Source: Synechococcus sp. UW69 (GTDB lineage Bacteria; Cyanobacteriota; Cyanobacteriia; PCC-6307; Cyanobiaceae). Taken from it: a DNA stretch of 64,000 bases. Positions 30,428 through 61,134 of this stretch are shown piece after piece. The stretch covers positions 186,001 to 250,000 of the forward strand of contig NZ_UCNW01000009.1 in NCBI RefSeq assembly GCF_900474185.1, read 5' to 3'. The first letter of the stretch is position 1; each line of letters starts with the position of its first letter. The notes under the pieces were generated by a model. It was given only the letters and a program-made list of their open reading frames with translations. It was not told the DNA's origin and made no database searches. The position numbers and the translations under genes were made by a program.

Positions 30428-30730
30428 ATGCATCTCAGTCCCCAGGAAAAGGACAAACTCCTGATCGTGACCGCGGCACTGCTTGCGGAACGACGATTGA
30501 ACCGCGGCCTGAAGCTCAACCACCCCGAATCGGTGGCCTGGCTCAGTTTTCTGGTGCTTGAAGGTGCCCGTGACGGCAAGAACGTGGCGGAGCTGATGCA
30601 GGAGGGCACCACCTGGCTGCGTCAGGACCAGGTGATGGACGGCGTGCCCGAGCTCGTGCACGAGGTGCAGATCGAAGCCGTCTTCCCCGATGGCACCAAG
30701 CTCGTCACCCTGCACGACCCAATTCGCTGA
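30428..30730 (+). CDS. ureA: urease gamma subunit
   Basis: A 100-residue protein of the expected size, starting [20 protein letters not shown] and containing [20 protein letters not shown]. It is one of three separate urease subunits, the common bacterial arrangement. It is followed ten bases later by ureB. Confidence 0.97.
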
Positions 30731-30740
30731 GGCAGAACCC

Positions 30741-31061
30741 ATGGCACCTCTCATTCCCGGCGAACTGCTTCCCGAACCGGGTGAACTTGAGCTGAATGCG
30801 GGACGACCCGTCACCACGGTGAGCGTCTCCAACAGTGGCGATCGACCGGTGCAAGTGGGCTCCCACTTCCATTTCGCCGAAGCCAACGCCGCCCTGCAGT
30901 TCGACCGGGCCGCAGCCCGCGGTCATCGTCTCGACATCCCCGCCGGCACCGCCATCCGCTTTGAACCTGGCGACAGTCGCGACGTGAACCTCATTCCCTT
31001 TGCCGGTGCCCGACGCGTCATCGGCTTCAACGGCCAGATCAACGGACCCCTCGACGCCTGA
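30741..31061 (+). CDS. ureB: urease beta subunit
   Basis: A 106-residue beta subunit. It starts at ATG 30741 with [19 protein letters not shown] and contains [19 protein letters not shown] and [17 protein letters not shown]. All are standard. ureC starts three bases after the stop. Confidence 0.97.
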
Positions 31062-31064
31062 CCC

Positions 31065-32774
31065 ATGCCCTACCGCATCTCCCGCCAGGCCTACGCCGAG
31101 ACCTACGGACCCACCACCGGCGACCGGGTTCGCCTTGCGGACACCGAGCTGATCCTCGAAGTCGAGAAGGACTACACCGTCTACGGGGATGAGGTGAAGT
31201 TCGGCGGCGGCAAGGTGATTCGCGATGGCATGGGCCAGTCCCAGACCCCTCGAGCCGAAGGCGCCGTCGACACAGTGATCACCAATGCCTTAATCCTCGA
31301 TTGGTGGGGCATCGTCAAAGCCGATGTCGGCCTCAAAGACGGCCGAATCGTGGGCATCGGCAAAGCCGGCAACCCCGACACCCAGGAAGGGGTCACGATC
31401 GTGGTGGGCCCCGGCACCGAGGCGATCGCTGGGGAAGGTCACATCCTCACGGCCGGTGGCATCGACACCCACATCCACTTCATCTGCCCCCAGCAGATCG
31501 AAACTGCTCTGGCCAGTGGCGTCACCACCCTGATGGGCGGCGGCACCGGACCAGCCACCGGCACCAATGCCACCACCTGCACCCCTGGGGCGTTTCACAT
31601 CGGGCGAATGCTCCAGGCCGCCGAAGGCTTGCCGGTGAACCTGGGCTTCTTTGGCAAGGGCAACGCCAGCACCCCGGAAGCCCTGGAGGAACAGGTGCGC
31701 GCCGGTGCCTGCGGCCTGAAGCTGCATGAAGACTGGGGCACCACGCCGGCCACCATCGATGCCTGTCTGTCGGTGGCCGACCGGATGGATGTGCAGGTGT
31801 GCATCCACACCGACACCTTGAATGAAGCCGGCTTCGTGGAAGACACGATCGCCGCCATCAAGGGACGCACGATCCACACCTTCCACACCGAAGGTGCCGG
31901 CGGCGGCCATGCCCCAGACATCATCAAGATCTGCGGCGAAGCAAATGTGCTGCCGAGCAGCACGAATCCCACCCGGCCCTACACCCGCAACACGCTCGAG
32001 GAGCACCTCGACATGCTGATGGTGTGCCACCACCTCGACCCCAAAATCCCCGAGGACGTGGCTTTTGCCGAATCGCGGATTCGCCGCGAAACGATCGCCG
32101 CCGAAGACATCCTTCACGACCTGGGCGCCTTCTCGATCATCGCCAGCGACTCCCAGGCCATGGGGCGCGTGGGCGAAGTGATCACCCGCACCTTCCAGAC
32201 CGCCCACAAGATGAAGGTGCAGCGCGGTGCGCTCCCGGAAGACTCCAACCGCAACGACAACCATCGGCTGAAGCGCTACATCGCCAAGGTGACAATCAAC
32301 CCCGCTCTTGCCCATGGCATCAGCAGCGAGGTGGGCTCGATCGAAACCGGCAAGCTCGCCGATCTCGTGCTGTGGAAGCCGGGCTTCTTCGGCATTCGCC
32401 CGGAACTGGTGATCAAGGGCGGTTCGATCGTGTGGGCCCAGATGGGGGATGCCAACGCCTCCATTCCCACCCCCGGGCCCGTGCACGGCAGGCCCATGTT
32501 CGGCGCCTTCGGCAAAGCCTTGGCTCCCAGCTGCCTCACCTTCGTGAGCGCAGCCGCCATGGATGCTGATATCCAACGTCAACTGGGTCTGGAGCGCACC
32601 TGCATGGCGGTGAAGGACACCCGCAGCGTGGGCAAAAGCGCTCTCAAACTCAATTCCGCACTGCCGAAGGTGAGCGTGGACCCGCAGACCTATGAGGTGT
32701 TCGCCGACGGTGAACTGCTCACCTGCGAGCCCGCCGAAGTGCTGCCCCTCGCCCAGCGCTATCTGCTGCTTTGA
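31065..32774 (+). CDS. ureC: urease alpha (catalytic) subunit
   Basis: A 569-residue nickel amidohydrolase. Ligand segments are [23 protein letters not shown] with the carbamylated Lys, [24 protein letters not shown] and ASDSQAMGR. The mobile flap segment is [20 protein letters not shown]. All active-site residues I can place are present. It hydrolyses urea to ammonia and carbamate. Its stop overlaps the TTG start of the next gene (TTGA). Confidence 0.97.
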
Positions 32775-36344: not shown

Positions 36345-38369
36345 TCAAACGGGCATCAGCACCCGCCACCCCAGGCGGTCGGCCTCCCGACGGGCCAGGG
36401 CTGGCACGTCCTCTGCCACAAACATCCGGTGCAACATCTGCACACCCAGCAGATGATTGATCACGGCATCCATCTGCACACGCTCCGCATCGGTGGTGGC
36501 AGGGTCCGCATGACGTGCAAACAAGGCGCTAACGCCAGCCTTGCTCAATAAACCAGCGGCATCGATCGCCTCATCACTGAGGTAGTCATCGGCGAGTTGC
36601 TTCATCTGCTCCCACTTCTCGGGCTCCGTATGGGCTGGCGGCGCCATGAAGGCGAACTTCTCACGCCGATACAACACCTCCGGCAACAAACCCGCCATGG
36701 CTTCCCGCAACACGTATTTCTCGGTTTTTCCCTTAATCCGCAGTTCGGGAGGCACTTGCACGGCAACAGCGGCCAGATGGTGATCCAGGAAGGCCGGTCG
36801 GGCCTCCATGGAATTGGCCATGTCGACCCGGTCACCGCCCCAGGTCAAGATCTGGCCCTCCAACATGGTCTTGATCCAGACGTACTGGGCCTTGTCCAAG
36901 GCATGGCGCCCTTCAAGTTGATCCGCATCCAATTGCTCAGCAATCGCTTTACCCGGGGAGTAATCCTGCAGGGCTGCAGCATGAGACTCCGCCAGAAGCT
37001 CCGGCACCAAGGGCGCACAGGCCAGCCACGGCTGCAGGCAACTGGGGGTAAAGCCAACCACCGCATCGAGGTCGGGATCGTCCACCTGGTTTTCAGCGAG
37101 CATCGCTCCCTGCACCAGGGCATTGGACTGCTGAAGCAAGGTTTCCCAGCTGGCGCGCTCCTCCTGAGGCAAGTCATCCAGACCGTGGAGGAACATGTCG
37201 CGGCGAAAGGCGGGATAACCGCCGAACAACTCGTCTGACCCTTCACCGGTCATCACGACCTTGTAGTCAACGTTGCTGACATGGCGACTCATCAAGAACT
37301 TCGCCACCGCCAAGGTGTTGTAGATCGTTCGCTCCGCATGCCAGATGGTGCGCTCCATATGGCCATAGAGCTCCTGACCGGAGAGACGCATCAGATCCTG
37401 CTCAGCCCCCGTGGCCTCGGCCATCTCCTGAGCAATCGGCGACTCGTCGTAACGGGCGTCATCGAATCCGATCGTGAACGCCTTCACCGGTGCCTGGCTG
37501 ACAGCTGACGCCAAACCGAGAATCGAACAACTGTCGATGCCACCGGAGAGATAACAGCCCACAGGCACGTCGGCCACCATGCGCAGCTCGACCGCCTCCA
37601 GCAAGGACGCCCGGACAGCAGCGATGTGGTCGGCCTCCGTGAGGCGGCGATCGCGCTGATCCTGACGCGGAAAATCGACATCCCAGTAGGTCGTCTCCGA
37701 CACCTCCAGCCGCCCATTCGCACGTTGCACCTTCAGCACATGGCCAGGCTTCACCTGCTGCACCCCAGCAAAGGCAGTGGTGCCAGGAACCATGGTCTGC
37801 ATCAACTGGTGGAACAGACCCTCCGACGTGAAGCGTCGTTCCACCGCCGGATGCGCGAACAGCACTTTCAACTCGGAACCAAACACCAGACCCTCAGGCG
37901 TCATCACCCAGTACTGCGGTTTGATGCCGAAGCGATCCCGCACCAGGTAAAGGCAATCCTCCGCGCGATCAAACAACGCAAAGGCAAATTCCCCGCGCAA
38001 TAGAGGCAAGGTCGCCTCCAAGCCCTGGCGCTGATAAAGCCGGAGCAGGATCTCGGAATCGCTCTTGCTGCTGAAGCGCACCCCCTGGGCGGTGAGGTCC
38101 GCCCTGATGCGTTGAAAGTCGTAAAACTCACCGTTGTGCGCCATCAGCACCTCACCGTCATCGGTGAGAAAGGGCTGACGGCCACGTGACTCGTTCAGAT
38201 CGATGATCGAGAGGCGGGCATGGCAGAAACCAACACCAGCCTGATCAAGCACCTCCACGCCAAAGCCATCGGGCCCACGATGGGCCTGGATCGCTGCCAT
38301 GTTGACCAGCAGCTGGCGGTCCACCGTCTGACGACGGTCTGCGTTGAAAACACCTCCGATTCCGCACAT
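36345..38369 (-). CDS. asnB: asparagine synthase, glutamine-hydrolysing
   Basis: A 674-residue AsnB. Cys2 of MCGIGGVF is the glutaminase nucleophile. NHGPDG-type recognition is at HRGPDGFGVEVL. The synthetase PP-loop is GCYLSGGIDSCS and ATP binding includes EGSDELFGGYPAF. It converts aspartate, glutamine and ATP to asparagine. It starts nine bases after the upstream carbamoyltransferase stop, so the two are probably cotranscribed. Other members of this class make amide bonds in secondary metabolism, so a non-asparagine substrate is possible. Confidence 0.88.
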   Translation of the reverse strand: MCGIGGVFNADRRQTVDRQLLVNMAAIQAHRGPDGFGVEVLDQAGVGFCHARLSIIDLNESRGRQPFLTDDGEVLMAHNGEFYDFQRIRADLTAQGVRFSSKSDSEILLRLYQRQGLEATLPLLRGEFAFALFDRAEDCLYLVRDRFGIKPQYWVMTPEGLVFGSELKVLFAHPAVERRFTSEGLFHQLMQTMVPGTTAFAGVQQVKPGHVLKVQRANGRLEVSETTYWDVDFPRQDQRDRRLTEADHIAAVRASLLEAVELRMVADVPVGCYLSGGIDSCSILGLASAVSQAPVKAFTIGFDDARYDESPIAQEMAEATGAEQDLMRLSGQELYGHMERTIWHAERTIYNTLAVAKFLMSRHVSNVDYKVVMTGEGSDELFGGYPAFRRDMFLHGLDDLPQEERASWETLLQQSNALVQGAMLAENQVDDPDLDAVVGFTPSCLQPWLACAPLVPELLAESHAAALQDYSPGKAIAEQLDADQLEGRHALDKAQYVWIKTMLEGQILTWGGDRVDMANSMEARPAFLDHHLAAVAVQVPPELRIKGKTEKYVLREAMAGLLPEVLYRREKFAFMAPPAHTEPEKWEQMKQLADDYLSDEAIDAAGLLSKAGVSALFARHADPATTDAERVQMDAVINHLLGVQMLHRMFVAEDVPALARREADRLGWRVLMPV

Positions 38370-38378
38370 AACGCTCGC

Positions 38379-39494
38379 TCAGACGACATCCATGACGCGT
38401 TCGGCCCGGTTCACCATGCAGGTGAGCAGTGCCATCCGCAGGAACACAGCTCCCCTGGCCTGGCTGAAATACCAGTTGTGGGGTGTGTCATCAAGGCAGG
38501 TGCTCAGTTCCGCTCCCCGCGCCAAGGGATGGAGCACGATCGCTTCAGGCTTGAACGGCATGTCGCGGGTGAGGCGAAATCCTCTCCCGTGCACTTCATA
38601 GGTATCGCCAACCCAGGCGATGGCGTTGATGTAAATGACATCCAGATCGGGCACTTCAGCCTGTAGATCGGTGCTGCAGCGCACCTTCATGCCGCAAGCC
38701 TCGAGCTCCTCCAACTGCCCAGGGTCGAACAACTGCAGATCCGACTCCAACCCGGGAGCATGAATCACCACCACCTCATCCACGGTCTGCGGGAATTTGG
38801 CCAGGATCCTCAGCAGTGAGCGAACCGTTCGCATCCGCGATGGAATCCCGACGATTCCGATGCGAATCCGATCAGCCGCAGCCACCTCAACTTCGGCGAG
38901 CTTGGGCCGCCACTTGAAGATGGTGTACAGATCCGCCATTGCCTGAGTCGGATGTTCATCAATGCCGTTGCCTGCATTGATGATGGGAATCCGCAGGGTT
39001 GACGTCATCGCATAAACAGCACCGGGATCGCTGTCCCGAAGCACCACGCAATCGCCGTAGTTGTTGAACATGTGGGCGACATCTTCAAGGGACTCGCCCT
39101 TGGCAATCCCGGTGGTAGCTCTGTCGGTGATGTTGATCGAGCTGCCACCAAGGCGATGCCAGGCACTGTCAAAAGAGAGACGGGTGCGCGTGCTCGGCTC
39201 GTAAAACGCGTTAATCAGAATCTTGCCGGTCAGGGGCGTGTTGTGGCGGCAATACCGATCTGGATTGCTCTCGAATTTCGCCGCCAGCCGAAACACCTGC
39301 AACAAGGCCTCGGGTCGAAACGGTTGGATCGACACCACATGCTGATTCACCAGATCCAGCAACGGCTCTCCGTCCTCGGCAATCGCAGCCAGCAGCTCCT
39401 GGGGTTGGTTCTGGCCATAGACATCGGGACCCATCGGCTGAAACCGAATCTGTACCGACGACGCTTCAACTACTGCTGAATTTGCCTGTGCCAT
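38379..39494 (-). CDS. divergent aspartate/ornithine carbamoyltransferase-family protein
   Basis: A 371-residue transcarbamylase. Carbamoyl-phosphate contacts are kept: STRTR (101-105), AKGES (131-135), HPTQ (181-184). The C-terminal HPLARG (322-327) resembles the ATCase HPLPR loop. The aspartate-specific RVQ of ATCase and the DxxxS/SMG of OTCase are replaced by DVIYINAIAW (285-294). There is a long N-terminal extension of about 50 residues. It is probably not the housekeeping PyrB, and its second substrate is unknown. The neighbours asnB and a carbamoyl-amino-acid hydrolase hint at a carbamoylated nitrogen compound. Confidence 0.8.
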   Translation of the reverse strand: MAQANSAVVEASSVQIRFQPMGPDVYGQNQPQELLAAIAEDGEPLLDLVNQHVVSIQPFRPEALLQVFRLAAKFESNPDRYCRHNTPLTGKILINAFYEPSTRTRLSFDSAWHRLGGSSINITDRATTGIAKGESLEDVAHMFNNYGDCVVLRDSDPGAVYAMTSTLRIPIINAGNGIDEHPTQAMADLYTIFKWRPKLAEVEVAAADRIRIGIVGIPSRMRTVRSLLRILAKFPQTVDEVVVIHAPGLESDLQLFDPGQLEELEACGMKVRCSTDLQAEVPDLDVIYINAIAWVGDTYEVHGRGFRLTRDMPFKPEAIVLHPLARGAELSTCLDDTPHNWYFSQARGAVFLRMALLTCMVNRAERVMDVV

Positions 39495-41347: not shown

Positions 41348-41523
41348 AGCGAAGACCCTTTGAACTCCAGAAACAGATAAGCAAAAGAGTCTTCCCCGCC
41401 TGGCCCTTCGCCCTCGATTCAGGTGCCTTCGGATACGCAAACATCAAGCGATCAGCGCCCTGTCACCTGAAATTGCGGAATGTGTAGCAACTACAACCCG
41501 AGGGGGTTGGGGCGACGCCTTGG

Positions 41524-43023
41524 ATGAAATGTGCCCAGACCATCGGAATGTTCACCGACTACAAACCCACGGTCGGCTTCGACGAATATTTCTGCAGTGA
41601 CACGGCGAGGCCTCGCGACGATCTGGCCACCCTGCTTGCATCGCTGGGGCAGATGGGATTGCCCGAGCTCAACCGCAGTCATGCCTCCGCCAGCCAGCTG
41701 CTGCGTCGCCTCGGTGCCACGTTCCGCCTGAACGATTCCGGCCTCAAGGGCAGTGAACGGATTCTTCCTTTCGATCCCTTGCCCCGACTGATCGGCCGCA
41801 GCGACTGGATCAACCTGGAGCGGGGACTGCTGCAACGCCTGGAAGCCATCGACTGCTTCCTCGCCGACATCTACGGCCACCAGCAGATCCTCAACGACGG
41901 TGTGATCCCGCGGGAAGACGTGGAAAGTTCCTCCGGCTGGCGACCTCAGATGCAGGGCATCAGCCTGCCCCTCAACCGCTGGTGCCACATCTCCGGACTC
42001 GACCTGATCCGCGACGGCAATGGCACCTGGCGTGTCCTGGAAGACAACCTGCGCTGCCCGTCAGGGGTGGCCTACTTCCTCGAGAATCGTCGGGTGATGA
42101 AACGGTTGTTCCCTGGCCTGTTCGAGGGCCGTGCCGTTCAACCGATCGACGCCTATCCCTCCCATCTGCTGCGCACCCTTCAGGACCTGGCGCCCTGGAG
42201 TGAAAGCCCTCGCGTGGCAATCCTGACGCCCGGGGTGTTCAACAGCGCCTATTTCGAGCACAGCTATCTGGCCCAGCAGATGGGCATTGCACTGGTTGAG
42301 GGACGGGACCTGGTCTGCGAAGACGGCCGGGTGTGGATGCGCAGCACCAACGGGCTCAAGCCCGTGGATGTGATCTACCGCCGTATCGACGACGATTTTC
42401 TCGATCCCACCGTGTTCCGGCAGGACTCGATGCTGGGGGTGCCGGGCCTGATCAACGTGCTTAGGCAAGGACGGGTCGCCATCGCCAATGCCCCCGGCAC
42501 CGGCGTCGCCGACGACAAGCTGATCTACGCCCATGTGCCGGCAATGATCCGCTACTACCTCGATGAGGAGCCGATCATCGAGAACGTTCCCACCTATCTC
42601 TGTGCCCGGCCCGACGATCAGCGCTATGTGCTCGACCACCTCGAGCAACTGGTGGTGAAATCGGTGGCGGAAGCCGGGGGCTACGGAATGCTGATCGGCC
42701 CCCAGGCCAGCCGATCGGAACTGGCTGACTTCGACACCAAGATCCGTGCGAATCCCCGCAACTTCATCGCGCAGCCCACACTGCAGCTCTCCACCGTGCC
42801 ATCCCTCAGTGATGGTGAGCTGTATCCCTGCCACGTGGATCTGCGCCCCTATGTGCTGCGCGGCTCAAACAGCTGGGTGAGCCCAGGGGGGCTGACGCGG
42901 GTGGCCCTCAAGCGGGGCTCACTGGTGGTGAATTCATCCCAAGGGGGCGGCTGTAAGGACACCTGGATCGTCGACGACCAGCGGATGTCGGCACCGCAAC
43001 CAAAGGAGGCTGTGCCGTGTTGA
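41524..43023 (+). CDS. circularly permuted ATP-grasp protein (type 2, DUF404/DUF407-like)
   Basis: A protein of about 499 residues. Diagnostic segments are FRLNDSGLKGSERILPFDPL, LADIYGHQQIL, GWRPQMQGISLPLNRWCHIS, WRVLEDNLRCPSGVAYFLEN and SVAEAGGYGMLIGP. These permuted ATP-grasp proteins are predicted to ligate a carboxylate to an amine, and no substrate is known. ATG 41524 is used. ATG 41548 (MFTDYKP) is an alternative. It overlaps the alpha-E gene by seven bases in a conserved trio. Confidence 0.88.
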   Translation: MKCAQTIGMFTDYKPTVGFDEYFCSDTARPRDDLATLLASLGQMGLPELNRSHASASQLLRRLGATFRLNDSGLKGSERILPFDPLPRLIGRSDWINLERGLLQRLEAIDCFLADIYGHQQILNDGVIPREDVESSSGWRPQMQGISLPLNRWCHISGLDLIRDGNGTWRVLEDNLRCPSGVAYFLENRRVMKRLFPGLFEGRAVQPIDAYPSHLLRTLQDLAPWSESPRVAILTPGVFNSAYFEHSYLAQQMGIALVEGRDLVCEDGRVWMRSTNGLKPVDVIYRRIDDDFLDPTVFRQDSMLGVPGLINVLRQGRVAIANAPGTGVADDKLIYAHVPAMIRYYLDEEPIIENVPTYLCARPDDQRYVLDHLEQLVVKSVAEAGGYGMLIGPQASRSELADFDTKIRANPRNFIAQPTLQLSTVPSLSDGELYPCHVDLRPYVLRGSNSWVSPGGLTRVALKRGSLVVNSSQGGGCKDTWIVDDQRMSAPQPKEAVPC

Positions 43024-44012
43024 GTCGCGTTGCCGATTCGCTCTACTGGATCAACCGCTATCTGGAACGCGCCGAAAACGTCTCACGTTTTCTGGAAGTG
43101 AGTGAAGCGATGGCGCTGGACTGCCCTCCGGGGAGCGCAGAACCATGGTTGCCGTTGGTGGAGGTGACAGGGGATCGGAACCGCTTCGACGCGGCCTATC
43201 CCGATGCCACTCCCAAACAAGTGGTGCGCTTCCTACTGCTGGACCGCAGCAATCCCAACAGCATCGTGAGCTGCATTGCGATGGCTCGGGAAAATGCAAG
43301 GCAGATCAGGGATGTGATCACCACGGAAATGTGGGAGCAGATCAATGATCTGCATTGGAGCCTGCAAGACGACGAAGACATCTGGCGGGAACCCGTGCAG
43401 GAGCAACTGCAGATCATCCGCCGCGGCTGCCAGCTTGTGTACGGGATCACCGACACCACACTGAGCCGCGATCTGAGCTGGCTGTTCAGCCAGCTGGGAC
43501 GTCTGATCGAACGCGCTGACAAAACCTCCCGCATCCTCGACGTCAAATACTTCCTGCTGCTGCCGTCCACCGAGGAGGTCGGCGGGGTGCTGGATGAACT
43601 GCAGTGGATCACCCTGCTGCGCACAGCGGGCGCGTATCAGATGTACCGCCAAAGCGTCCAACAAGCGATCAGCCCCGCATCGGTGGCCCGCTTTTTGCTG
43701 CTGGATCCATTTTTTCCTCGGTCGGTGCGCTACTGCCTCCAGGGCATCAGCGACACCTTGCAACAGATCCAGCAGCACCCGAGCCAAGACACGCCGGATG
43801 ATCTCGACTGCTTACGCGGCCAGCTCCTGGCCCGCTGGAGCTACGTGCGGATCGACAACCTGATCGAATCCGGTCTGCATCAAGCGATTGACCGGCTTCA
43901 GCAGGACCTCAACCAACTCCACAACCTGATCCAGACCCGCTACTTCACCAGCGCTGACCTCCGTTCCACCCCCACCGATCCCGCATGCGCGCTCTCATCG
44001 TTCACCGCCTGA
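43017..44012 (+). CDS. alpha-E domain protein (DUF403)
   Basis: A 331-residue all-helical protein. It starts LSRVADSLYWINRYLERAEN, the alpha-E hallmark, and has HWSLQDDEDIW and ERADKTSRILDVKYFLLLPS. These proteins always travel with the permuted ATP-grasp protein and usually a transglutaminase, and their biochemical role is not known. The start is GTG 43017. It overlaps genes on both sides, 7 and 28 bases. Confidence 0.88.
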   Translation: MLSRVADSLYWINRYLERAENVSRFLEVSEAMALDCPPGSAEPWLPLVEVTGDRNRFDAAYPDATPKQVVRFLLLDRSNPNSIVSCIAMARENARQIRDVITTEMWEQINDLHWSLQDDEDIWREPVQEQLQIIRRGCQLVYGITDTTLSRDLSWLFSQLGRLIERADKTSRILDVKYFLLLPSTEEVGGVLDELQWITLLRTAGAYQMYRQSVQQAISPASVARFLLLDPFFPRSVRYCLQGISDTLQQIQQHPSQDTPDDLDCLRGQLLARWSYVRIDNLIESGLHQAIDRLQQDLNQLHNLIQTRYFTSADLRSTPTDPACALSSFTA

Positions 44013-44884
44013 CGTATCGGTATGACGCCCCGGTGCATTTGGGGGAGCATCGCCTCTGTCTGAGACCCCGGGGACAAGGGTTCCAGACCCTTCTGGAGCA
44101 TCAACTCAGCGTGCTGCCGGAACCGGAGCAACGTCGGGAACTGGTGGCCGCCAGCGGCGACGAAATCCAACGGCTCCGCTTTCTCGGCAGCACCGATGAA
44201 CTGATCTTTGAAGCCCGCAGCCTGGTGGAGACCCGGCCAGCACCACCGCTGCAGAGCTGCTTCAACGGACTCGAACCACCCTTGCCTTACCCGCAAGGAC
44301 AACTCAACAGCGATCTGCAGGGAGCCTTAGAAGGCTGGTTGCCGAATGGCCAGCATGAACCCGCAGCCATCGACCTCACCCAGGAAGCCCTAATGGGCAG
44401 CAACCAGCAGACCCTGGCCTTTCTGAGGCAACTGATTGACCTGATTCAAGAGCGCGTGAAATACACCCAACGCCATGTGGGGCCGGCCTGGCCAGCGGGC
44501 CGAACCCTGCGCGAGCGGATCGGCTCTTGCCGAGATCTGGCCATGCTGATGGTGGCCTGCAGCCGAGTGGTAGGGCTTCCCGCCCGATTCGTGAGCGGCT
44601 ATCAACTGCAGCAACCTCCCCCGAAGGAATACGACCTGCATGCCTGGGCGGAGGTCTACCTGCCCGGGGCGGGCTGGCGCGGCTTTGATCCCAGTGCCGG
44701 CATGGAAATCAACGAGCGCTATGTGGTGCTGGCCACCTCCTCCAAGCCGGAACTCACCGCGGCCGTGAGCGGCAGCTTCAGCGGTCCTCCCGGAACAGCC
44801 AGTGAACTGAACTGGCAGATTCAGATCACTGAGGAAGCCTCCGGAACGGAAACCTGCTCACGCAACCTCGTTCAGGCCGCCTGA
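43985..44884 (+). CDS. transglutaminase-like family protein
   Basis: A 299-residue protein with an N-terminal beta domain (VHRLTYRYDAPVHLGEHRL) and a transglutaminase-like cysteine protease core. The triad appears as Cys182 (RIGSCRDLAML), His219 (YDLHAWAEVYLPG) and Asp235 (GFDPSAG), all present. It probably cuts or transfers an isopeptide or peptide bond made by the ATP-grasp partner. It overlaps alpha-E by 28 bases and converges with the cupin gene by 13. Confidence 0.88.
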   Translation: MRALIVHRLTYRYDAPVHLGEHRLCLRPRGQGFQTLLEHQLSVLPEPEQRRELVAASGDEIQRLRFLGSTDELIFEARSLVETRPAPPLQSCFNGLEPPLPYPQGQLNSDLQGALEGWLPNGQHEPAAIDLTQEALMGSNQQTLAFLRQLIDLIQERVKYTQRHVGPAWPAGRTLRERIGSCRDLAMLMVACSRVVGLPARFVSGYQLQQPPPKEYDLHAWAEVYLPGAGWRGFDPSAGMEINERYVVLATSSKPELTAAVSGSFSGPPGTASELNWQIQITEEASGTETCSRNLVQAA

Positions 44885-45420
44885 AGCAGAGGTTCCACCC
44901 CATGCAACTGGGGCTTCCGAGCAGAGCTAAGGGTTGCAGCCATCAAGGCCGGGATCTCGGCGCTGTTGTAGACGCGAAATTCCCGCACAAGAGAGACGCC
45001 CTCCTCACGGACCGCCTGGTTCAGAACGACAGAGCCATCGGGATCGGAAATCGAGCGGTGGAAGGTGCCGGGGGGAATGCGAAGGATGTCACCACCACTC
45101 TCCAGCCGAACGATGTGAAACGGCTGCTCCCAGGCCAGATTCACCAAAAAGAAGGTTCTCCCGCCACTAGCCGCCAGCAAATTGTCTTCCTGGTGGGGAT
45201 GCAAATAAAACTGCCAGGCTCCGCTCTCAGGGTCGTTGGGTGGCGACACCGCCGGACCGCTGTGAATCACCAAGTCACGCGCGTTCGAGGTGTCCACAGT
45301 CACGTCGAAAAAACGAACCGATGGGGTGTCGCGAAAGCGCTCGTAGGCCAGCAGTTCGAACATCTCGATGGATCCTTGAAGATCCTTCAGCTGACCTGTT
45401 GTACCGGGAGCCTCACTCAA
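44872..45420 (-). CDS. RmlC-like cupin protein
   Basis: A 182-residue small beta-barrel protein. WQFYLHPHQEDNLLAASGGR and ILRIPPGTFHRSISDP are the two cupin-type motifs and carry several histidines that could bind a metal. I cannot assign a substrate. Sugar epimerases and small-molecule dioxygenases share this fold. ATG 45420 is used, but a start at the internal Met of SIEMFELLAYERF is possible. It converges with and overlaps the transglutaminase gene. Confidence 0.65.
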   Translation of the reverse strand: MSEAPGTTGQLKDLQGSIEMFELLAYERFRDTPSVRFFDVTVDTSNARDLVIHSGPAVSPPNDPESGAWQFYLHPHQEDNLLAASGGRTFFLVNLAWEQPFHIVRLESGGDILRIPPGTFHRSISDPDGSVVLNQAVREEGVSLVREFRVYNSAEIPALMAATLSSARKPQLHGVEPLLQAA

Positions 45421-47341: not shown

Positions 47342-48883
47342 ATGCTTGGCGACCTCTGGTCGTTCCAGGGCAGGTATCGAACCCTCCACCTGACCTGGAT
47401 CGCCTTCTTCCTGACCTTCGTGGTCTGGTTCAACTTGGCCCCTCTGGCCACCACTGTGAAAGCGGACCTCGGATTGACCGTTGGTCAGATCCGCACCGTG
47501 GCCATCTGCAATGTGGCCCTCACCATCCCGGCTCGCGTGCTGATTGGCATGCTTCTGGACAAATTCGGACCCCGGGTCACCTATTCGTCGATCCTGGTCT
47601 TCTCAGCCTTCCCCTGCCTGCTGTTTGCGTCCGCTCAGGACTTCAACCAACTGGTGGTGGCACGTCTGCTGCTCTCCATCGTGGGCGCCGGCTTCGTGAT
47701 CGGCATCCGAATGGTGGCCGAGTGGTTCCCTCCTAAGGAAATCGGCCTCGCGGAAGGGATCTACGGCGGCTGGGGCAACTTCGGCTCCGCCTTCTCCGCC
47801 CTCACGATGGTGGCCCTCGCCGGCTTCCTCTCCTTCTCCGGTGGTTTTGAACTGCCGACCGGTGCTGTTCTGAACTGGCGCGGTGCGATCGCCCTCACCG
47901 GCATCGTTTCGGCTGCCTACGGCTTCTTCTACTTCTTCAACGTCACGGACACACCCCCCGGCAAGACCTACCAGCGGCCTGAGAAGACCGCAGGCCTGGA
48001 AGTCACCTCCATGCGCGACTTCTGGGGCCTGCTCGGCATGAACGTGCCCTTCGCAGCCATCCTCTGTGTTCTCTGCTGGCGCCTGTCGAAAGTTGGCTTC
48101 CTCACCGCAAGCACCTATCCGCTGGCCCTCGGTGCCGTCGCCGTCTGGTTTGCCTTCCAAACCTGGGGAATCATTCGCACCAACCGCGATCTGATTCTTG
48201 GCAACAAGGTTTATCCCAAGGAAGACCGCTACGAGTTCCGCCAGGTGGCGATCCTCGAGCTCACCTACATCGTGAACTTCGGTTCCGAACTGGCCGTGGT
48301 TTCGATGCTGCCCACCTTCTTTGAAACCACCTTCGATCTGCCGAAGGCCACCGCCGGAATCCTGGCCTCCTGCTTCGCTTTCGTGAACCTGGTGGCGCGC
48401 CCTGCCGGTGGTCTGATCTCCGACCGGGTCGGCAGCCGCAAGAACACCATGGGCTTTCTCACCGCTGGTCTCGGCGTGGGCTACCTGGTGATGAGCATGA
48501 TCAAACCAGGCACCTTCACCGGCAGCACCGGCATCGTCGTTGCCGTGGTGATCACCATGCTCGCCTCCTTCTTCGTGCAGTCCGGTGAAGGCGCCACCTT
48601 CGCTTTGGTGCCCCTGGTCAAGCGTCGCGTCACCGGTCAGGTGGCCGGTCTGGTGGGTGCCTACGGCAACGTTGGTGCTGTGACCTACCTGACCATCTTC
48701 AGCCTCCTGCCGATGTGGATGGGCGGCGGCGGCGAACCCACCCCCGAGGTGATTGCTGCCTCCAACAGCGCCTTCTTCCAGATCCTGGGCGTGGCCGGTC
48801 TGATCGTGGCCTTCTTCTGCTTCTTCTTCCTCAAGGAGCCCACAGGGTCCTTCGCAGAGCTGCACGAAGGCGAAACGGCCTGA
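47342..48883 (+). CDS. nrtP: nitrate/nitrite permease, major facilitator type (NrtP)
   Basis: A 513-residue MFS transporter with 12 helices. RVLIGMLLDKFGPRVTYSSI is the loop 2-3 signature. GWGNFGSAFSALTMVALAG carries the NNP family nitrate signature type, and VNLVARPAGGLISDRVGSRK lies in the C-terminal half. It matches NrtP of marine cyanobacteria, which replaces the NrtABCD ABC transporter. It probably imports nitrate and nitrite across the inner membrane. A terminator separates it from narB. Confidence 0.93.
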   Translation: MLGDLWSFQGRYRTLHLTWIAFFLTFVVWFNLAPLATTVKADLGLTVGQIRTVAICNVALTIPARVLIGMLLDKFGPRVTYSSILVFSAFPCLLFASAQDFNQLVVARLLLSIVGAGFVIGIRMVAEWFPPKEIGLAEGIYGGWGNFGSAFSALTMVALAGFLSFSGGFELPTGAVLNWRGAIALTGIVSAAYGFFYFFNVTDTPPGKTYQRPEKTAGLEVTSMRDFWGLLGMNVPFAAILCVLCWRLSKVGFLTASTYPLALGAVAVWFAFQTWGIIRTNRDLILGNKVYPKEDRYEFRQVAILELTYIVNFGSELAVVSMLPTFFETTFDLPKATAGILASCFAFVNLVARPAGGLISDRVGSRKNTMGFLTAGLGVGYLVMSMIKPGTFTGSTGIVVAVVITMLASFFVQSGEGATFALVPLVKRRVTGQVAGLVGAYGNVGAVTYLTIFSLLPMWMGGGGEPTPEVIAASNSAFFQILGVAGLIVAFFCFFFLKEPTGSFAELHEGETA

Positions 48884-48920
48884 TCCATCAGCCTCAGCAG
48901 CAACGCGTTGCTGCGCAACG

Positions 48921-48955
48921 ACCCGGAGCTTCCACTCCGGGTTTTGTTCTTTTTT
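48921..48955 (+). terminator. intrinsic terminator between nrtP and narB
   Basis: ACCCGGAG and CTCCGGGT form a perfect 8-base-pair stem around CTTCCA, followed by a T-rich tract (TTTTGTTCTTTTTT). It begins 37 bases after the nrtP stop and ends 9 bases before the narB ATG, so narB expression relies on read-through or on an internal start. Confidence 0.8.
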
Positions 48956-48964
48956 GGTTCCTGC

Positions 48965-51196
48965 ATGGTCAACTCCCCCCGCAGCGTGCGCAGCCAGTGC
49001 CCCTACTGCGGAGTGGGCTGTGGCCTGGAGCTGCTCCCTCCTGCTGTGAAGGGTCAAGCCGTGAAGCGGGATGCTGAAGGCAATCCAATGTGGACCGCCC
49101 GCGGCGACCGCGAGCATCCCTCCAGTCTTGGTCAGGTCTGCATCAAGGGCGCCACGGTTGGTGAAACCCTGGCCCAAGGGCGACTGCGCCAACCCCTATT
49201 CCGCGAAACGCTCGAGGACGACTTCGCACCGATCAGCTGGGACGAGGCCCTCGACAAAATCACCGGACAGATTCAGGCAAGCGTGACCCAGCGCGGCAAT
49301 GCCGATGGCATCGCCATGTACGGCTCCGGCCAGTTCCACACCGAGGACTACTACCTGGCCCAGAAACTGCTGAAAGGCGCACTGGGCACCAACAATTTTG
49401 ATGCCAACTCGCGGCTGTGCATGAGCTCAGCAGTGGCGGGCTACACCCGCAGCCTGGGCTCCGATGGCCCCCCCTGCAGCTACGAAGACCTCGACCACTG
49501 CACGGTGGCGTTTCTGATCGGCACCAACACTGCCGAGTGCCATCCGGTGCTGTTCCAGCGCCTGCTGAAGCGAAAACGAAAAAACCCCGGCAGCGTCACC
49601 ATCGTGGTGGTGGATCCACGCCGCACCGACACCGCCAAAGCCGCCGACATCCACTTGCCGATTGCACCAGGCAGCGACCTGGCCCTGCTTCACGGCATTG
49701 CCCACCTGGTGCTCCGCGAGAACGGCCAGGACCCAGCTTTCATCGACGACCACACCGAGAATTACGACGCCTTTTTTGACGTCGCCGCCCGCTGGACTCC
49801 AAGGCGGGTTGCCCTGTTCTGCAACATCCCCGAAAAACGCCTGCGGGAAGTGGCCGCTCTGTTCCACCGGCGCGAAAAGGTGCTCAGCCTCTGGTCAATG
49901 GGGGTGAACCAACGCCGGGAAGGAACAGCAGTGGTGCAGGGGTTGATCAATCTGCATCTGCTCACCGGCCAGATCGGCAAGGAAGGAGCAGGCCCGTTTT
50001 CCCTCACCGGCCAACCAAATGCCATGGGCGGGCGTGAGGCTGGAGGGTTGGCGCATCTGCTGCCGGGCTACCGCTTGGTGGCCAACGCGGAGCACCGTGC
50101 CGCAGTGGAACAGGCCTGGCGTCTGCGAGAAGGAAGGATCAACGCCAAGCCTGGATTAGCGGCCTGGCAGCAGATCGAAGCAATGGAACAGGGCGCGCTG
50201 GATCTGTGGTGGGTGGCCGCCACCAACCCCCTGGTCAGCCTCCCGGATCTCGACCGGGTGAAGTCAGCCTTGAACAAGTGCCCGCTGGTGGTGGTGAGCG
50301 AGGCCTATGCCGACTCTGAAACGTCCCATTACGCCCACCTGCTTTTGCCCGCAGCCCAGTGGAGTGAGAAGGCCGGTGCCATGACCAATTCCGAACGACG
50401 GGTGACCTATTGCCCGGCCTATCGACGCCGCTTCGGCGAAAGCCGGCCCGACTGGGAGGTCTTCGCTGACGTGGGACGCCGCTTGGGCTACACCGAACAA
50501 TTCAGCTTCGATTCAGCGGCTGAGGTTTACGCCGAATTCACCGAACTGACCCGAGGGCGCCTCTGTGACGTCAGTGGCCTGAGCCATGCGCTGCTTGAAC
50601 AGGACGGGCCACAGCAGTGGCCGTACCCCCACGGCAGCAGCCCCAGCGCAGCAGCGAAACGCCTCTACGAAGACCATCAGTTCCCCACCCCGAACAAACG
50701 CGCCCGCTTCAGCACCGATCAACCGCTCGGGCTGGCGGAACCCCCCTGCGAGACCTACCCCCTGGTGCTGACGGTGGGCCGCTATCTGGGGCAGTGGCAC
50801 ACCATGACCCGCACAGGGAAGGTGGAACGGCTGATGAAACAGCATCCCGAGCCGCTGCTGGAGATTCACCCCGGTGACGCTCAGGATCTAAAACTGCGCA
50901 ACGGCGAACTGGCAGCGATCAGCTCGCGCCGCGGTCACCTCACCGCGACCGTGAAGGTCACCGATCGCATTCGGCGTGGATCGGTCTTTCTGCCAATGCA
51001 CTGGGGATTCACCCAGGAGAAGGCCTGCGAGGCCAACACCCTGATGCATGACGAGGCCTGCCCGGTATCGAAGCAGCCGGAACTCAAGGCCTGCGCGGTG
51101 ATCGTGGCTCCGGCCGTCTCGGTGGTGAAGCCCGTCGAGCAGCAAAAAGGAAAGCTGGAGGCACTGCGCCGGCTGCTCACACCAGCACTTCGCTGA
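48965..51196 (+). CDS. narB: ferredoxin-nitrate reductase
   Basis: A 743-residue molybdopterin enzyme. The N-terminal 4Fe-4S site is SQCPYCGVGC plus QVCIKG (Cys12, 15, 19, 59). The MGD-binding parts include YGSGQFHTEDYYLAQKLLKG, NFDANSRLCMSSAVAGY with the Mo Cys, and VVDPRRTDTAKAADIHLPI. It reduces nitrate to nitrite with ferredoxin electrons in the cytoplasm. It lacks the NAD- and cytochrome-linked extensions. It overlaps the convergent narM gene by 20 bases. Confidence 0.95.
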   Translation: MVNSPRSVRSQCPYCGVGCGLELLPPAVKGQAVKRDAEGNPMWTARGDREHPSSLGQVCIKGATVGETLAQGRLRQPLFRETLEDDFAPISWDEALDKITGQIQASVTQRGNADGIAMYGSGQFHTEDYYLAQKLLKGALGTNNFDANSRLCMSSAVAGYTRSLGSDGPPCSYEDLDHCTVAFLIGTNTAECHPVLFQRLLKRKRKNPGSVTIVVVDPRRTDTAKAADIHLPIAPGSDLALLHGIAHLVLRENGQDPAFIDDHTENYDAFFDVAARWTPRRVALFCNIPEKRLREVAALFHRREKVLSLWSMGVNQRREGTAVVQGLINLHLLTGQIGKEGAGPFSLTGQPNAMGGREAGGLAHLLPGYRLVANAEHRAAVEQAWRLREGRINAKPGLAAWQQIEAMEQGALDLWWVAATNPLVSLPDLDRVKSALNKCPLVVVSEAYADSETSHYAHLLLPAAQWSEKAGAMTNSERRVTYCPAYRRRFGESRPDWEVFADVGRRLGYTEQFSFDSAAEVYAEFTELTRGRLCDVSGLSHALLEQDGPQQWPYPHGSSPSAAAKRLYEDHQFPTPNKRARFSTDQPLGLAEPPCETYPLVLTVGRYLGQWHTMTRTGKVERLMKQHPEPLLEIHPGDAQDLKLRNGELAAISSRRGHLTATVKVTDRIRRGSVFLPMHWGFTQEKACEANTLMHDEACPVSKQPELKACAVIVAPAVSVVKPVEQQKGKLEALRRLLTPALR

Positions 51197-59422: not shown

Positions 59423-59592
59423 CGATCAACACCAAAAGTGTTCTCTTTGTTACGGACCAGGGCTGCCTTCGCGTTGTTAATTCACTCATCCCAACGCTCC
59501 CTTCATTTTGAAGCGTTGCCGGTCTTCGGGCCATCTCGATTGATTTGCGCCTCGTCTCTGAGCAATCAATCCGCCCACTTTTCAATCGACTT

Positions 59593-61134
59593 ATGACTAT
59601 TAGCTCTCCCTCCAGGCCGTACCTGGATGGCAAGAAGCTCAACAAGATCGAGCAGAACAAGGCGGCCAAAGATGGCCTGTTGGTCGGTAGCGAGATCGAG
59701 AAATTCGCCGAACTTGGCTGGGAAGAGGTTGATGAAACCGACCTTCAACTGCGTTTGAAGTGGTACGGCATGTTCTGGCGTCCGAAAACGCCAGGCAAGT
59801 TCATGCTCCGCCTGCGTGTGCCCAATGGAGTGCTGAACGCAGATCAACTGCGTGTGGTTGGTTCGATCGTCGAGCGCTACGGCGAAAACGGCAGTTGCGA
59901 CATCACCACGCGGCAGAACCTGCAGTTGCGTGGTGTGCTGCTGGGCGACCTGCCAGAGATTCTTAAACGACTAACGGAAGCAGGTCTCAGCACGATTCAA
60001 TCCGGCTTCGACAACCCCCGCAACGTCACTGGCAACCCAATCGCCGGCATCGATCCCAATGAGATCGTCGACACGCGGCCCTACACAACCGAGCTGCAGA
60101 ACTTCCTCACCAACAACTGCCAAGGCAACCCGGAGTATTCCAACTTGCCCCGCAAGTGGAACACCGCCGTTGCAGGGGCGAAGGACAACTTCCTGCTCCA
60201 CAACGACATCGTCTTTCACCCCGTGGAACGGGATGGGGTGATGGGATTTGGCGTGTGGATCGGCGGTGTTCTGTCATCGCAGATGAATGCCTATGCCATT
60301 CCTCTGAATGCCTGGGTGAAGCCTGACGAAATCTGCAAGATGACCGACGCCGTGATCCGGCTCTGGCGCGACAACGGTGAGCGGGACAAGCGCCCCAAAG
60401 GCCGCTTCCGCCTCTATCTGGATCAGGTGGGCCACGACGTGTTCCGCGGCCAAGTGGAAGAACTCTTCGGTCCGCTGACACCGGATCCTGGCTCCGTGTT
60501 CAACACCACGCCGCGCTCCCACTACGGATTCCATCCCCAGAAACAGGAGGGCCTGTCCTACGCCGGTCTGCACGTTCCAGTCGGCCGCCTGACCGCCCAG
60601 GATCTTCAGGATTTGGCCACCGCCAGCCTCAATTACGGCAGCGGCGAAGTGCGTCTCACGGAAGATCAGAACGTCATTCTGGTGGGACTGGCCAACGACA
60701 AACGGGAAGCCTTGAAGGCCGATGCCCTCGTGCAGCGCTTCCCTCTGGAACCCGGTCACATCTCGGCTGGAACGGTGTCCTGCACCGGCAACACCTACTG
60801 CGGCTTTGCCCTGACCAACACCAAAGACCAAGCCCTTGAAGCAGCCAAGGAACTCGACCAGGAACTCAATCTTCCCGACGAGCTGAAAATCCATTGGACC
60901 GGCTGCCCCAACACCTGCGGACAGGCCTACATGGGTGCCATCGGCCTCACCGGCACCAAGGCAAAAAACAGTGAGGGAGTCATGGGTGAGGGCTACACGA
61001 TGACCATCGGCGGTTCCCAAGGCGCCAACCCAAGCATCGGCGAAATCCACCGCAAGGCCATCCCCGCCGATGAGATCAAGGCAGCTCTGAAAGAGGTGTT
61101 GATCGACAAATTCGGGGCCACCCCGAAGGCCTGA
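59593..61134 (+). CDS. nirA: ferredoxin-nitrite reductase
   Basis: A 513-residue siroheme/4Fe-4S enzyme. The cluster and siroheme cysteines are Cys397 and Cys403 (SCTGNTYCG), Cys438 and Cys442 (TGCPNTCG). GSCDITTRQNLQLRGVLLGD and NPIAGIDPNEIVDTRP are family regions. It reduces nitrite to ammonium with six electrons from ferredoxin. ATG 59593 is used, where KLNKIEQNKAAKDG follows. Sulfite reductase is unlikely, given the context. Confidence 0.96.
   Translation: MTISSPSRPYLDGKKLNKIEQNKAAKDGLLVGSEIEKFAELGWEEVDETDLQLRLKWYGMFWRPKTPGKFMLRLRVPNGVLNADQLRVVGSIVERYGENGSCDITTRQNLQLRGVLLGDLPEILKRLTEAGLSTIQSGFDNPRNVTGNPIAGIDPNEIVDTRPYTTELQNFLTNNCQGNPEYSNLPRKWNTAVAGAKDNFLLHNDIVFHPVERDGVMGFGVWIGGVLSSQMNAYAIPLNAWVKPDEICKMTDAVIRLWRDNGERDKRPKGRFRLYLDQVGHDVFRGQVEELFGPLTPDPGSVFNTTPRSHYGFHPQKQEGLSYAGLHVPVGRLTAQDLQDLATASLNYGSGEVRLTEDQNVILVGLANDKREALKADALVQRFPLEPGHISAGTVSCTGNTYCGFALTNTKDQALEAAKELDQELNLPDELKIHWTGCPNTCGQAYMGAIGLTGTKAKNSEGVMGEGYTMTIGGSQGANPSIGEIHRKAIPADEIKAALKEVLIDKFGATPKA

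Follow-up and report, generated by a model that had tools for sequence, protein, structure and literature searches.

Three overlapping genes were analyzed in a 64,000-nucleotide stretch of the cyanobacterium Synechococcus sp. UW69 (contig NZ_UCNW01000009.1, positions 186,001 to 250,000 of the forward strand), hereafter the window. The trio is encoded on the + strand and comprises a circularly permuted ATP-grasp ligase (41548..43023; longest open reading frame, ORF, from 41524), assigned by Pfam, alignment and its match to the solved homologue 3n6x; an Alpha-E helical partner (43017..44012), assigned by ORF, Pfam, alignment and structure model; and a transglutaminase-like Cys-His-Asp enzyme (43985..44884), assigned by its two domains and alignment. 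All Pfam scores lie above the curated cut-offs: 545.1 bits for CP_ATPgrasp_2 (cut-off 32) and 478.1 bits for CP_ATPgrasp_1, 330.6 bits for the Alpha-E domain, and 72.8 and 69.9 bits for Transglut_core and Bact_transglu_N, respectively. Thus, the three overlapping genes with these domains that a sequence-only reading of the DNA had described were borne out, with ORFs at 41524-43023, 43017-44012 and 43985-44884 that overlap by 7 bases (ATP-grasp/Alpha-E) and 28 bases (Alpha-E/transglutaminase-like). The same holds for the intact triad it had reported, as Cys182, His219 and Asp235 are invariant in 16/16 aligned transglutaminase-like sequences. The loss of ATP-binding residues, which it had named as evidence that would speak against a ligase, was not observed: glycine-rich and charged motifs are kept in the ATP-grasp alignment (18 sequences), conservation extends to the segments VVK, GGYGML, DLRP and EDN, which we take to be the nucleotide site, and in 3n6x (474 residues) the ATP-grasp profile aligns from residue 7 to residue 473 (E 7.8e-204).

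In the family of the window genome, the three genes were found together and in the same order in 22 loci. Comparison with same-genus relatives gave dN/dS values of 0.055-0.167 in 9 of 12 cases, the other three not being estimable owing to saturated dS. Given the Pfam scores, the intact residues and the low dN/dS, the trio is under purifying selection and is a maintained, probably catalytic system. The structure model of Alpha-E has a mean pLDDT of 85.1 and gave no match in the PDB (Foldseek, E <=0.001), and no solved relative of the protein was recognized by the searches made. With VIA-align the best Z was 8.9, and NasR (4akk), a nitrate regulator, came second with 8.7; both values are within chance for helical proteins and nothing was drawn from them. 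An anti-phage role was also considered and rejected, as none of the three proteins was matched by the PADLOC defense models.

The limits of the second and third genes given by the sequence-only reading stand as ORFs, but its start for the first gene (41524) is likely to be replaced by 41548 (MFTDYKP...). This position is most likely the true start because the conserved N-terminus begins there and the ATG at 41524 overlaps a -10-like element, TTGGAT (41520-41525). Across 36 aligned rows, the conserved reading begins with M/V-F-x-x-Y at 41548 (shifted in L123), and the preceding sequence varies. These rows comprise the window itself, 14 loci of short flank and 21 family stretches, the window genome and G020 being counted twice each. 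In three loci (L071, L072 and L077), a stop codon lies between the two candidate starts.

Upstream region and nitrogen assimilation genes

An NtcA-like site, GTAGCAACTACAAC, is found upstream of the ATP-grasp gene (41484..41497, +). It reads GTA-N8-AAC, one base off GTAN8TAC, and the -10-like element TTGGAT (41520..41525, +) follows 22 bp after it. NtcA-activated promoters combine a -10 box with GTAN8TAC some 41.5 bp upstream of the transcription start (PMC3898017); the sequence in the window resembles this type and is a putative target of NtcA. Of the 22 family loci, which represent 20 genera, 18 have GTA-N8-HAC (H = A, C or T) 58-72 bp ahead of the ATP-grasp start, with 0.05 expected from order-1 shuffles; the right half and the distance were chosen after viewing the alignment, making this count partly post hoc. 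At the same distance, the motif precedes 16 of 663 other ORFs of the same stretches, a control that includes overlapping, probably spurious ORFs. Three of the four remaining family loci (L126, L128 and L133) keep GTAGCAA with GAC as the right half. A -10-like hexamer (TTGGAT, TTTGAT, CATGAT, GATGAT and similar) follows 22-23 bp after the site in 13 of the 18 loci, a loose pattern counted without a control. The palindrome TGTAGN3CTACA at this position is shared by the closest relatives alone and was set aside in favor of GTA-N8-HAC.

Counts of the exact GTAN8TAC are free of the post hoc choice, since they depend on neither the HAC half nor the selected distance. Within 300 bp upstream, it was found in 6/22 family loci (0.22 expected) and in 8/14 loci of distant cyanobacteria (0.38 expected; 15/237 control ORFs). 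A second cyanobacterial sample, drawn from a class-wide search and sharing genera g4, g6 and g18 with the first, gave 14/26 (0.88 expected; maximum of 5 in 2000 shuffles), with at least one exact site in 11 of 14 genera and none in 104 control windows inside the gene. A scan across phyla, based on one genome per species (84,980 species), yielded 593 confirmed loci of which the best 80 were kept. Among these 80, the exact site occurs in 3 of 9 named cyanobacterial loci (0.41 expected) and, as a negative control, in 3 of the 71 loci outside cyanobacteria (3.61 expected). Several cyanobacterial loci have exact sites where urease is not adjacent (L122, L124, L125, L127, L130 and L140).

The sequence-only reading had seen no other gene in the unit, which is correct for the immediate unit and does not hold for the context, as the trio lies within a nitrogen assimilation cluster. 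Upstream in the window are urtA-E, the urease genes, an asparagine synthase, a carbamoyltransferase-like gene and a sodium:solute symporter; beyond the trio are cupin-like, moaA-like and mobA-like genes, nrtP, narB, further cofactor genes and nirA, and genes for a cyanase-like protein and a transporter of the formate/nitrite family are also present in the window. NCBIfam cut-offs are exceeded by UrtA, nitrite reductase, asparagine synthase and the NarK-type transporter, and the names urtB-E, ureABC, cyanase and those of the further cofactor genes are our assumptions from gene order and translation. The urease genes are represented by a ureA-like ORF (30428..30730, +) and a ureB-like longest ORF (30690..31061, +), both named from gene order (the ureA-like ORF also has matches beside the trio in relatives), and by ureC for the alpha subunit (31065..32774, +), where PF00449 matches in this genome. 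On the other side, the nitrate/nitrite transporter gene nrtP (47342..48883, +) matches TIGR00886 with 364 bits (cut-off 311.7), and the nitrate reductase gene narB (48908..51196, +, longest ORF) stays below NCBIfam cut-offs and was assigned by order and homology. The ferredoxin-nitrite reductase gene nirA (59545..61134, +) is above the nitrite reductase NCBIfam cut-off and has an exact GTAN8TAC 163 bp upstream of its longest ORF.

The distance from the ureC stop to the ATP-grasp start is 8773 bp in the window, with genes of the opposite strand in between, and 77-134 bp in six other genera. The intervening region includes asparagine synthase and carbamoyltransferase-like genes (36345-39494, -). 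Alpha-E was found in 126 and urease in 150 of the 201 family genomes. Alpha-E could be placed in 123 of the 126, the other three (G128, G164 and G180) having only gene pieces; urease was also placed in 117 of these, on the same contig in 95 and on different contigs in 22. In 82 of the 95, at most 15 kb separates Alpha-E from ureC, with Alpha-E always downstream and on the same strand, and these 82 span 19 of the 24 genera placed. In genomes of the window's own genus, the distance is 10-12 kb in 8/11 and 3.9-4.6 kb in the remaining three. In 51 of 64 genomes with both genes on one contig, Alpha-E and narB are no more than 25 kb apart, and 36 further genomes have the two on different contigs; 112 of 115 genomes were used, with one narB place each, leaving out G195, G203 and G212 (fragments or distant matches). 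Such genome counts ignore shared ancestry and overstate the number of independent events, against which only partial protection comes from the spread over genera and from replication in other families. The urease linkage looks confined to the family, because only one of the best 80 of 593 loci, that of a cyanobacterium (L211), had urease genes. The NtcA-like site thus seems older than the linkage, as it is found in cyanobacteria where the linkage was not seen. No printed account of the site or of the urease linkage of the trio was found among open-licence papers.

Relation to the Anbu operon and nitrogen control in other phyla

The operon of ATP-grasp, Alpha-E, transglutaminase and the proteasome-like peptidase Anbu was described by Iyer et al. 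2009 as a predicted system for peptide synthesis or modification (cited in PMC6376114, PMC5666114 and PMC3597751), and later papers state that no function is known for Anbu or its operon (PMC6376114, PMC8665760). The sequence-only reading had presented the trio as an uncharacterized system for making and cleaving amide bonds; the chemistry is indeed the established expectation for these folds, and the set had already been described with Anbu. Its statement that the domains travel together agrees with 59 genomes, in which ATP-grasp and Alpha-E are both present in the same 45 and both absent from the same 14. The two families are also present in a genome of S. elongatus used as a control. The window carries three of the four Anbu-operon proteins in the order given in PMC6376114, here with overlapping genes, and differs in that its genome has no Anbu found, in the linkage to urease and nitrate genes and in the NtcA-like promoter.

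Neither PF00227 nor a 13-sequence Anbu profile (A4) gave a match in the window genome. The initial idea that Anbu was lost in the whole family proved wrong, as profile A4 matches 43/201 family genomes in 10/59 genera. Alpha-E is present in 42 of these 43, and 84 of the 126 Alpha-E genomes have no Anbu match; within the cyanobacterial class, PF00227 matches 87 genomes and ATP-grasp is found in 85 of them (exceptions G302 and G328). On these figures, Anbu nearly always accompanies the set, but the set can do without Anbu. These absences depend on search sensitivity, PF00227 being weak for Anbu (one search missed G038, G039 and G043, found in another), and profile A4 may also catch other proteasome-like homologues. 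Anbu matches in other phyla are only indicative, since the Anbu model used for them held at least three antisense rows (L036, L042 and L048). A cross-locus neighborhood check covering 1.6 kb upstream and 2.5 kb downstream of 28 loci (BLASTP E 1e-4, families by eye) recognized no independent short-ORF family in at least four genera that could be a carrier peptide, in agreement with the sequence-only reading, which had seen no such gene alongside. The short ORFs that do recur appear to be shadow frames of ureC, of the N-terminal part of ATP-grasp, of the C-terminal part of the transglutaminase or of larger genes.

The trio proteins occur in many phyla among the best 80 of 593 loci. Of the 71 non-cyanobacterial loci (by title), 69 had enough upstream sequence (L176 and L190 were dropped), and six of them carry strict sigma54 sites (0.09 expected; 0/207 control windows), none being alpha- or gammaproteobacterial. 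A looser pattern was found in 10/71 (1.85 expected). For two proteobacteria, published data show that genes which look to be those of the set respond to nitrogen. In a Burkholderia cenocepacia ntrC mutant, values of -8.2 for DUF404/407, -9.4 for DUF403 and -9.4 and -6.0 for two transglutaminase-like genes were reported, and these genes (I35_5080-5083) depend on NtrC and sigma54 along with urease, urea transport (urt) and nitrate reductase genes (PMC5491218). This operon shares DUF404/407, DUF403, a transglutaminase-like protein and nitrogen control with urease and nitrate genes, and differs in using NtrC/sigma54 in place of NtcA and in having an additional large transglutaminase-like gene, for which no counterpart was seen next to the trio in the window. 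In Pseudomonas putida, PP2685, PP2686 (transglutaminase-like) and PP2687 rise when nitrogen is limiting, with values of 11.1/4.0, 6.6/4.6 and 7.1/2.6 in two columns, which we read as nitrogen versus carbon and carbon-nitrogen versus carbon limitation (PMC3325844); annotation and PMC6376114 suggest that they are homologues of the operon.

Anbu is also highly expressed under nitrogen starvation (PMC6376114), the expression of the operon proteins was unchanged under various other conditions (PMC5666114), and in Bradyrhizobium a sigma54 site is predicted before a CP_ATPgrasp_1 gene (PMC13207237). In a 2013 study of marine metagenomes, these domains fell into one group with domains of urea metabolism (PMC3597751), likely because of the physical linkage described here. 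The names of the trio were not found by term search in the main text of PMC9430850, PMC5451487, PMC6737895, PMC6716455 and PMC4973221. Nitrogen control thus appears in more than one phylum and through different regulators, given the NtcA-like sites, the sigma54 sites and the published NtrC and nitrogen responses. As for activity, the ATP-grasp protein of the Yersinia operon released phosphate from ATP, and no peptidase activity of Anbu and no interaction among the operon proteins were detected in the same account (PMC6376114). A more distant comparison is the Rlo operon of Pseudomonas aeruginosa, which likewise has an ATP-grasp and a transglutaminase-fold protein; its ATP-grasp is likened to RimK (24% identity), its transglutaminase fold is inactive and membrane-bound, a secreted aspartic protease is present, and no Alpha-E appears in the passages shown (PMC12239564).

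Interpretation and alternatives

On balance, we favor reading the trio as an Anbu-less form of the amide-ligase set of the Anbu operon, working as a nitrogen starvation module. Within this reading, a role in nitrogen starvation is very probable, the making and breaking of amides is likely, and a direction toward salvage is put forward tentatively; on present evidence, the trio is not a new kind of chemistry. The folds are those of an ATP-dependent carboxylate-amine ligase and a Cys-His-Asp amidase or transamidase, and marine Synechococcus often live under nitrogen limitation. Under nitrogen shortage, NtcA would switch on a promoter immediately before 41548, leading to joint production of the three proteins, perhaps alongside urease. 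The ATP-grasp enzyme would activate a carboxylate with ATP and join it to an amine, the Cys-His-Asp enzyme would cleave or transfer the amide and recycle the carboxylate carrier, and Alpha-E, the constant partner of the ligase, would perhaps hold the substrate. Such a cycle of amine conjugation and release is suggested because a ligase and an amidase share one putative nitrogen starvation operon; gamma-glutamyl polyamine pathways, which conjugate an amine and later release it, provide an analogy only. Most likely, the net effect would be that nitrogen bound in an amine or amide is made available to the ammonium/urea pool, and this would account for the position behind urease. Control by an NtcA-like site in cyanobacteria and by NtrC/sigma54 in at least one proteobacterium narrows the Anbu-operon question to nitrogen starvation; it names a growth condition and a gene partner, urease, for the substrate hunt and makes this old question directly testable.

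Several observations weigh against this interpretation. The site in the window deviates in its right half (AAC for TAC), and the exact motif is missing from 16/22 family loci and from 6/14 and 12/26 loci of other cyanobacteria. The urease linkage does not hold in g40 and g79, where the trio lies 60-379 kb from urease on the same contig, and 19 stretches from other families (16 genomes) showed no urease gene. Moreover, among the 131 family genomes with completeness of at least 90% and contamination of no more than 5%, Alpha-E is present in 105, and three of these (G135, G194 and G208) have no urease match. The set does not always form a single operon: in distant cyanobacteria with both genes, ATP-grasp and Alpha-E are adjacent in 11/18 genomes and apart or on other contigs in 7, and of the 19 stretches of 20 kb examined around them, only 7 held a transglutaminase-like gene. 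No sigma54 site was found in the alpha- and gammaproteobacterial loci L197, L200, L204, L205 and L218. Finally, neighboring genes can share regulation without sharing a pathway.

One alternative is that the trio is unrelated to nitrogen, sharing only a neighborhood, and that a different CRP-type regulator uses the site. In distant cyanobacteria the genes lie away from urease, and sets of neighbors can descend from one ancestor. We consider this highly improbable, because exact sites are kept where urease is not adjacent, they recur in the two samples of other cyanobacteria and are not above chance outside this phylum, and other phyla have sigma54 sites and published NtrC or nitrogen responses. 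More specific than the reading we favor is a dedicated salvage pathway shared by cyanobacteria and many other bacteria, in which an unspecified amine or guanidino compound would be joined with ATP to a carrier and processed while on Alpha-E, after which the amidase would set it free as ammonia or urea for urease. In this explicit form it is somewhat unlikely; if true, it would be the first physiological role for the Anbu operon, with Anbu an optional add-on.

Nitrogen control would also fit protein recycling, as in the tagging hypothesis on record in PMC6376114 and PMC5666114. ATP-grasp and Alpha-E would attach amino acids or peptides to proteins, the transglutaminase-like enzyme would remove or cross-link them, and the mark would direct turnover in nitrogen starvation, Anbu serving as the peptidase in genomes that have it. 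Genomes with an Anbu or PF00227 match nearly always have Alpha-E or ATP-grasp as well, which agrees with this, but two thirds of the Alpha-E family genomes (84/126), including that of the window, have no Anbu match, Anbu showed neither peptidase activity nor a detectable interaction with the other operon proteins (PMC6376114), and a conserved small tag gene was not recognized around the 28 loci; we regard tagging as unlikely. Storage or stress protection, in which the trio would make a nitrogen-containing peptide or polyamine amide to be mobilized by the transglutaminase-like enzyme, appears improbable. A ligase with a hydrolase has the layout of a store-and-release cycle, and 3n6x, a whole-length homologue of the ATP-grasp protein, was named putative glutathionylspermidine synthase; this is the depositors' name only. 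Induction by nitrogen limitation suits release or scavenging better, and no Pfam family besides CP_ATPgrasp_1 and _2 was matched at E 0.001. The glutathionylspermidine synthase label was thus rejected, although distant kinship is possible.

Cupin-like neighbor and further observations

The gene convergent with the trio (44872..45420, -; conserved part from 45363) had been called a cupin by the sequence-only reading. The convergent orientation is confirmed, whereas the label is weakly supported: no Pfam family scored above cut-off (best ARD, E 0.065). No solved relative was found by sequence, and the structure model has a mean pLDDT of 33.9. The gene is whole near the trio in 12/22 family loci and a fragment in one more. 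In L122 and L125 it lies directly downstream of the trio on the same strand.

Other genes were seen next to the trio in single family genomes or in other phyla. In one family genome, a DUF2126 (putative amidoligase) gene is directly downstream of the transglutaminase-like gene (L139:6537-8681, -). A large ORF resembling glycogen phosphorylase by eye follows the trio in L132, with related ORFs in five genera. In five loci of other phyla (L150, L154, L164, L200 and L218), a second, larger set adjoins the first and comprises a long transglutaminase-like gene, a fused ATP-grasp/Alpha-E gene and another transglutaminase-like gene. In addition, the viral contig IMGVR_UViG_3300034072_001749 encodes a 40% identical ATP-grasp piece (L223:5001-5540).

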